Shown here in pieces: positions 31,068-32,447 of a stretch of 64,000 nucleotides of DNA. The translations under genes were made by a program, and so were the position numbers. Below the pieces are notes generated by a model. The model did not search any database. It saw only the letters and a program-made list of their open reading frames with translations, and was not told where the DNA came from. Source of the DNA: an uncultured marine group I thaumarchaeote (GTDB lineage Archaea > Thermoproteota > Nitrososphaeria > Nitrososphaerales > Nitrosopumilaceae); the NCBI GenBank assembly GCA_902552015.1, contig CACDFH010000001.1, positions 32,065-96,064 of the forward strand, given 5' to 3'. How positions within the stretch are numbered: position 1 is the first letter of the stretch; each line of letters begins with the position of its first letter.

Positions 31068-32290
31068 CGTTTAGGTTTGTATCCTTTTAGATAAAATATT
31101 GCAGCACCTATGCCTATTACAATTATGATTGCAAGTACTGCATATTGAGATTGGTCTTCGCTAGAATCTTCCTTTCCAAAATCTTCTATTGATTCGTACT
31201 CTTTCTCATCTTGTGGAATATCTTCTACTGAGTAAAATGACAATTCGGATTTTCCATCCCATGGTCCAATTTCAACTCTTAATTCATCTTGGGGAATGAC
31301 TTTGCTTTGACCAAATAGGAATTTGGCATCAATTGAGTTTCCTGCAGGTGAGCTAAAGAACCATCCTCTTTTTGAAATGTTCTCTAATGTGGTTAAATCA
31401 GTTATTGCATGTGTTGCTATTGTATCTATTTTTGCCGGTTCATTTGGAATGACCACCAATTGAATAACTGAATTTAACGGAACATTTCTTCCATCAAACA
31501 CATCTGAGCGTGAAATCTCATTTACTCCAAAGTTTTCTAGTACGTTGATTCTTGAAATTTCATCAGCGACATCTTTTATCTCATTTGTCACTTTAAACAT
31601 GAATAGATTTTCATCTCCTGTCTTGATAATGCTGACAGAAATTATTGCACCATCATTTTTTGATAATTTCTTTGAAATGTCGTAGAAACCTTGTCCTTCT
31701 CTAATCTCTTTAGCAATCAAAGTTCCTCCTAAATCTGTAAACAAGAAATCAGTTGACTGTTTTGGCATCGTAAATGTCGCTGAAACTGCACCTCTGCCCG
31801 AAATTACACCTGATGTTTCAAGTAATAGATTTGCATCATCTACTGTGTGTATGAATGTCGAATGAAATTCCCCTTCTACTCCTAATTCTTCATTTAATTG
31901 ATCAATTATCTCATTTCCCATTTCTCTTGCAGAATCTTGAACCATTCTAATTCCGCCATCTCCTTTCAATTGTTGGTAATCAAAATTAATCATAATGCAT
32001 TGTTCTTCGCTTGTAACTCCTATGACGCATTCACCTGCATTTGTAAACACTATCGCCCTGATCTTTTCATTATCATTAATTTTTTTGATTAGCTCATCTG
32101 TAAATTTAATTTCTTGATTACTGATGGTTTCTAATCCTATTGAGGTTACCACTGAATTTGAATACTGTTGATCATAAATCACAAGTGCACTTTCTTGAAA
32201 TGTGGCCTTTTCAAACAACTGTCCGCTTGCAAATGGCATAACAAGCATTATTCCAAAAACGATGCCAAGTGACAGTAATTTCTTTCTCAT
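31064..32290 (-). CDS. Surface protein with signal peptide and C-terminal TM anchor
   Basis: Residues 1-23 form a signal peptide (LLSLGIVFGIMLVMPFASG). A large extracellular region without Cys motifs beyond two (GECVIGVTSEEQC) follows, then an acidic linker, one TM (YAVLAIIIVIGIGAAIFYLKG) and a basic tail. This is the plan of the archaeal PEFG/PGF-like surface proteins. Function unknown. Confidence 0.75.
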   Translation of the reverse strand: MRKKLLSLGIVFGIMLVMPFASGQLFEKATFQESALVIYDQQYSNSVVTSIGLETISNQEIKFTDELIKKINDNEKIRAIVFTNAGECVIGVTSEEQCIMINFDYQQLKGDGGIRMVQDSAREMGNEIIDQLNEELGVEGEFHSTFIHTVDDANLLLETSGVISGRGAVSATFTMPKQSTDFLFTDLGGTLIAKEIREGQGFYDISKKLSKNDGAIISVSIIKTGDENLFMFKVTNEIKDVADEISRINVLENFGVNEISRSDVFDGRNVPLNSVIQLVVIPNEPAKIDTIATHAITDLTTLENISKRGWFFSSPAGNSIDAKFLFGQSKVIPQDELRVEIGPWDGKSELSFYSVEDIPQDEKEYESIEDFGKEDSSEDQSQYAVLAIIIVIGIGAAIFYLKGYKPKR

Positions 32291-32391
32291 GCACCATGAA
32301 TCCTGTATTATTTTATTTAGTTTACGGCTTTATGCTATAACGTTTAAATCACTAATCTAATTTTGCATAATTGACATCGAATTCAAACCGT

Positions 32392-32435
32392 TGGGGAACA
32401 CGCTGGCAGTCCGATGGCTCGGGCTGCCAGCCCCA
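32392..32435. ncRNA. GC-rich hairpin, candidate structured RNA
   Basis: GCTGGCAGTCC (32402-32412) pairs with GGGCTGCCAGC (32421-32431) over 11 bp with one G-T pair and an 8-base loop. TGGG (32392-32395) and CCCA (32432-32435) extend it below a one-sided bulge. It is strikingly GC-rich in an AT-rich gap between pepF and the surface-protein gene. It may be a small RNA, a leader structure of the downstream minus-strand gene or a terminator; strand is undecided. No T-run of the usual archaeal terminator follows. Confidence 0.4.
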
Positions 32436-32447
32436 CATTTTAATTAA

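Follow-up and report, generated by a model that had tools for sequence, protein, structure and literature searches.

The hairpin found in the window (the whole stretch of 64,000 nucleotides of thaumarchaeal DNA that was analysed) is only the 3' half of a larger feature. Computational comparison of related genomes identifies there a small RNA (sRNA) gene with a conserved 3' structure and with extensive complementarity to 23S rRNA. As judged from the sequences compared, the gene represents a new sRNA family of Nitrosopumilaceae and Nitrososphaeraceae that would act on the large ribosomal subunit, most likely as a placeholder or chaperone and less likely as a translation silencer or a guide. Almost all ammonia-oxidizing archaea of sea and soil appear to have retained the family; these organisms are among the most abundant cells of ocean and soil, and no conserved regulatory RNA was found described for them in the open-licence literature. 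No prior description of this sRNA was found in that literature, and surveys of ocean psRNAs may contain it as an unnamed transcript. We lean, by a small measure, towards regarding it as a lineage-specific stand-alone antisense RNA to the catalytic centre, neither C/D nor H/ACA and hence a third archaeal kind of rRNA-directed RNA, needed for 50S assembly or for reversible ribosome silencing in ammonia-oxidizing archaea. If this is true, ribosome assembly or activity in archaea is also handled by stand-alone RNAs that belong to neither of these two classes, and the exact rRNA site named here makes the proposal testable in cultured strains.

Layout of the gene and evidence for an RNA

The sequence-only reading had described, at 32392-32435, an 11-bp stem with an 8-base loop and a lower 4-bp stem. 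The stem GCTGGCAGTCC/GGGCTGCCAGC was found there and the hairpin is real, folding at -29.8 kcal/mol where shuffled sequences average -17.3 (z -4.94; none of 200 shuffles was as stable), although the stem is longer and the loop shorter than had been stated (Table 1). The lower stem is present in this genome, where box C has CCCC at 32431-32434 as an alternative partner, but it is not conserved, being missing in five relatives (L024, L034, L048, L053 and L107). A T-run, said to be lacking, does follow in a short form, and the position of the hairpin held while its extent did not, given that the conserved feature begins about 20 nt to the left of 32392 on the + strand, at TTGACATCG, as found in a search of 61 related genomes.

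Table 1. Predicted features of the small RNA gene in the window; rRNA positions follow E. coli 23S rRNA
Feature	Position	Strand	Basis or predicted partner
Archaeal promoter: BRE-like ATAACG and TATA box TTTAAAT (box 32343-32349)	32337-32349	+	constant distance to RNA start
Small RNA gene	32373-32441 (both ends about)	+	covariance-model match 32373-32437, 77.9 bits; probable ends
Box A, GACATCGA	32373-32380	+	predicted duplex with 23S rRNA 2500-2507 (UCGAUGUC)
Box B, TCAAACCG	32383-32390	+	predicted duplex with 23S rRNA 2488-2495 (CGGUUUGG), one G-U
Box C, GGGG	32393-32396	+	predicted duplex with archaeal 23S CCCC 2483-2486
AACA, nearly invariant, without rRNA partner	32397-32400	+	sequence comparison, duplex prediction
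3' hairpin with loop TGGC and 13 bp between 32402-32414 and 32419-32431; pairing kept while the sequence varies	32402-32431	+	
Short T-run (TTTT), probable termination or U-tail region	32438-32441	+	U-rich tails in relatives

The order of the elements is constant, running from the TATA box TTTAAAT through GACATCG, a spacer, CAAACCG, a second spacer and GGGGAACA to the hairpin and a U-rich stretch. The TATA box precedes the RNA gene by 30 nt in the window, and its first T lies 29-31 nt ahead of the first base of the 5' block in 113 loci from both families; among the 11 other matches, ten scored a closer AT-rich run owing to a last-match rule and one was a chance bacterial match. This constant spacing predicts a transcription start at the block itself. 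The hairpin would form the 3' end of a small RNA of about 65-70 nt that is probably expressed from its own + strand promoter.

Evidence for an RNA gene came from a first covariance model built from 23 sequences, in which 94.4% of the stem cells were paired, two-sided changes occurred in 7 of 11 pairs and the covariation score was 0.365, against 0.208 for shuffles and at most 0.100 for slid controls. A joint alignment of both families had 97% of cells paired and two-sided changes in all 11 modelled pairs; it was fitted to the structure, the independent test being the 23-sequence model. Compensatory changes in related genomes, proposed earlier as a check, were thus looked for and found across two families, in both of which the hairpin sequence drifts while the 5' block stays frozen. 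Together with the constant TATA distance, the single copy and the lack of an Rfam match, they give good support to the suggestion of an undescribed small RNA, and the element is a predicted RNA gene. A small protein was rejected since 1-nt length changes in the 5' block between genera keep no reading frame, as was a mobile element, since each genome has a single copy and collections of phages and plasmids gave no match.

A tRNA or known RNA family at the hairpin site was also rejected, ARAGORN and Rfam being negative, which agrees with the earlier statement that no tRNA fits. The window segment had no match in Rfam 15 even at E up to 10, and four further loci (L199, L194, L048 and L035) had none at the gathering score except a tRNA. 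It had likewise been stated that a C/D or clear H/ACA pattern is lacking, and the defining motifs are indeed missing across 84 distinct sequences: none has the C box RUGAUGA together with the D box CUGA, and only five have an ACA within 6 nt of the stem. An H/ACA pocket with guide strands on both sides was not found, as all complementarity lies 5' of the hairpin and the hairpin pairs without a pocket.

The other proposal of the sequence-only reading, that the element might lead the minus-strand gene at 32290, is not supported, because the RNA reads on the + strand, away from that gene; that reading, a small RNA or a leader, is partly supported. Of 103 Nitrosopumilaceae loci, 96 have pepF as the convergent downstream neighbour, whereas in each of the 20 Nitrososphaeraceae loci the neighbour is a different one. 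A riboswitch or mRNA leader would lie upstream of a gene and co-directional with it, whereas almost every locus inspected has a convergent gene downstream. Since the neighbour is convergent and differs between the families, the sRNA leads no gene, and a trans-acting RNA is therefore the best reading.

Complementarity to 23S rRNA

The contrast between a frozen 5' block and a drifting hairpin prompted a search for a pairing partner of the block. The block forms three stacked predicted duplexes on 23S rRNA, spanning 2483-2507 overall in a numbering obtained by alignment to E. coli rrlB: GACAUCGA pairs with UCGAUGUC, UCAAACCG with CGGUUUGG and GGGG with CCCC, and the rRNA bases UACC (2496-2499) are bulged between boxes A and B. 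Positions 2488-2507 make up the 3' strand of helix 89 together with a portion of the peptidyl-transferase ring; within the mature large subunit they lie folded and buried.

When 61,604 windows from both strands of a complete related genome (G025) were compared, this 23S site ranked first among the non-self sites, at -33.0 kcal/mol versus -28.6 for the next; in the 360 kb covered of a Nitrososphaeraceae genome (G043), a portion with one rRNA operon, it was again the best, with a close second (-28.8 versus -27.7 kcal/mol). Shuffled blocks reached these energies on 16S plus 23S rRNA in 0 of 500 and 1 of 500 cases. All 19 distinct block variants keep the rRNA pairing, at -28.8 to -34.3 kcal/mol, and the differences among them are almost confined to the two unpaired spacers. 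The extended rRNA complementarity beyond chance that is looked for in an rRNA-directed chaperone RNA is therefore present. Other rRNA sites, which gave weaker scattered matches of 8-10 nt, were discarded. Across 300 genomes, matches of the exact three-box pattern within the two families were the sRNA gene, the 23S antisense strand and hardly anything more, and in Nitrosocaldus-like genomes they were the 23S strand only; a reversed control pattern had no match in the 300 genomes.

These archaea have almost the same sequence at the rRNA site, and hence rRNA-sRNA covariation cannot show there. Invariance of the block could also reflect protein binding, and in some members box C or box A can pair internally. 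The AACA 3' of box C, nearly invariant in both families, is a possible protein site. The block also resembles an antisense 23S fragment minus four bases (ACATCGAGGTACCAAACCG versus ACATCGACCAAACCG, the 23S antisense matches including L001), a likeness that hints at a possible antisense-rRNA origin of the sRNA.

Proposed role and alternatives

The sRNA resembles an rRNA-directed RNA outside the C/D and H/ACA classes tested, and we give an even chance to its being a placeholder or chaperone that would cover one strand of helix 89, the 3' one, as well as the peptidyl-transferase loop during assembly. Its unstructured 5' end would pair with 23S rRNA by means of the three invariant boxes, between which the spacers vary, presumably binding the nascent rRNA; once bound, it would keep helix 89 and the catalytic loop from early or wrong folding, and it would be removed late in assembly. 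The target nucleotides are buried and folded in mature ribosomes, so the sRNA most plausibly meets them before folding, which favours a placeholder or chaperone.

Precedents exist in yeast and in archaea. The yeast snR190, a C/D snoRNA, is an experimentally supported chaperone and placeholder of early pre-60S particles; like the sRNA described here it is small and carries elements antisense to large-subunit rRNA in the peptidyl-transferase region, near the site addressed here, and it serves as a chaperone or placeholder and not in modification (PMC8536666). It differs in being a C/D snoRNA that has its pairing sites in H73 and domain I and works together with the Npa1 complex (PMC8536666), whereas the present sRNA has no C/D boxes and is predicted to pair with 2483-2507. 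Archaeal C/D box sRNAs have also been proposed as rRNA chaperones, and share with it a bipartite rRNA complementarity, in many cases near the peptidyl-transferase centre (PMC4644070). In contrast to them, our sRNA has no C or D box and combines longer duplexes and one invariant target with a long 3' hairpin. The snR190 precedent, the proposals for C/D sRNAs and the buried site together favour an assembly placeholder over a silencer and, after that, a guide.

A translation silencer is the less likely reading but one of some weight, since with 2500-2507 the predicted pairing takes in the very core of the active site. Here the sRNA would pair with the peptidyl-transferase loop once large subunits are complete or almost so, and would hold them inactive, for example during starvation. 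The Haloferax rancRNA_s194, likewise an intergenic archaeal small RNA, binds the large subunit and alters translation (PMC6104027), although by its description it stands apart, being 97 nt long with a reported complementarity to the mRNA cstA (PMC6104027). Access is doubtful, however, as in a mature 50S folding has buried these roughly 20 nt of helix 89 and catalytic loop, and the target of box B is a helix strand and not a loop.

It is rather improbable that the sRNA regulates mRNAs or proteins and that the rRNA match is coincidental: trans-acting sRNAs usually consist of a 5' seed followed by a 3' hairpin, and an invariant block with a conserved yet unpaired AACA can be a protein site, but the rRNA site is the genome-wide optimum, the three boxes match in order and variation falls on the unpaired bases. 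A guide of a new type is about as improbable, and we assign it slightly less weight still; here two duplexes would flank the bulged 2496-2499 and offer one base to a modifying enzyme. The constant four-base bulge UACC between two duplexes of 7-8 bp, cleanest in Nitrososphaeraceae, would suit such a guide, and archaeal H/ACA guides likewise have one hairpin and two short duplexes that flank unpaired target bases. The sRNA departs from H/ACA guides in having both guide parts on one side of the hairpin, 5' of it, a bulge of four bases and no consistent ACA box, and the lack of C/D boxes and near-complete lack of an ACA close to the stem in the 84 sequences also argue against a guide. A leader or terminator of a neighbour (the minus-strand gene at 32290 or pepF) is barely credible. 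The hairpin does sit in an intergenic gap that pepF mostly adjoins in Nitrosopumilaceae, but it belongs with the promoter and the invariant block to a single + strand unit, which is convergent with the neighbour and is retained next to other neighbours too, and the reading is already contradicted.

Distribution

A pattern scan of genome contigs with GACATCGN{1,3}TTCAAACCG matched Nitrosopumilus, Nitrosarchaeum, Nitrosopelagicus, Nitrosotalea, Cenarchaeum and soil Thaumarchaeota; the remaining matches were attributed to chance, the element being absent from them. With the covariance model, the sRNA was detected in 209 of 250 Nitrosopumilaceae genomes and, among the good genomes, in 125 of 131. 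It was present in 21 of 22 genera, and a genome seldom has more than a single copy. Nitrososphaeraceae gave weak matches with the first model, and their loci have the same promoter and TACATCGACCAAACCG-AN-GGGGAACA with a hairpin of wholly different sequence. A second model matched this family at E values down to 6e-17, to be read with regard to its partial training on Nitrososphaeraceae.

Model searches of the class and phylum found no convincing members beyond the two families. Weak matches outside them (E 0.0002-0.1) were treated as chance; those at E 0.0002-0.007 fall in G048, G283, G426, G598 and G687, of which G048 and G283 belong to one genus. Four near-complete Nitrosopumilaceae genomes (G026, G083, G183 and G160) were without a model match, reflecting assembly gaps or true losses. 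Ammonia oxidizers that bear amoA and had no match are three genomes of a small-genome Nitrosopumilaceae genus, g5 (G034, G272 and G273), three of a Nitrosocaldus-like family, f2 (G037, G053 and G277), and two of a third family, f3 (G038 and G054), in which the sRNA is lost or has diverged beyond detection. It was accordingly rejected as a marker of all ammonia oxidizers, and its absence from Nitrosocaldus-like and some small ammonia oxidizers means that it is not essential to all of them. One genus (L219 and L220) has a longer linker between block and hairpin (AAAAAATTCCGTGGA), with the TATA box and the paired stem kept.
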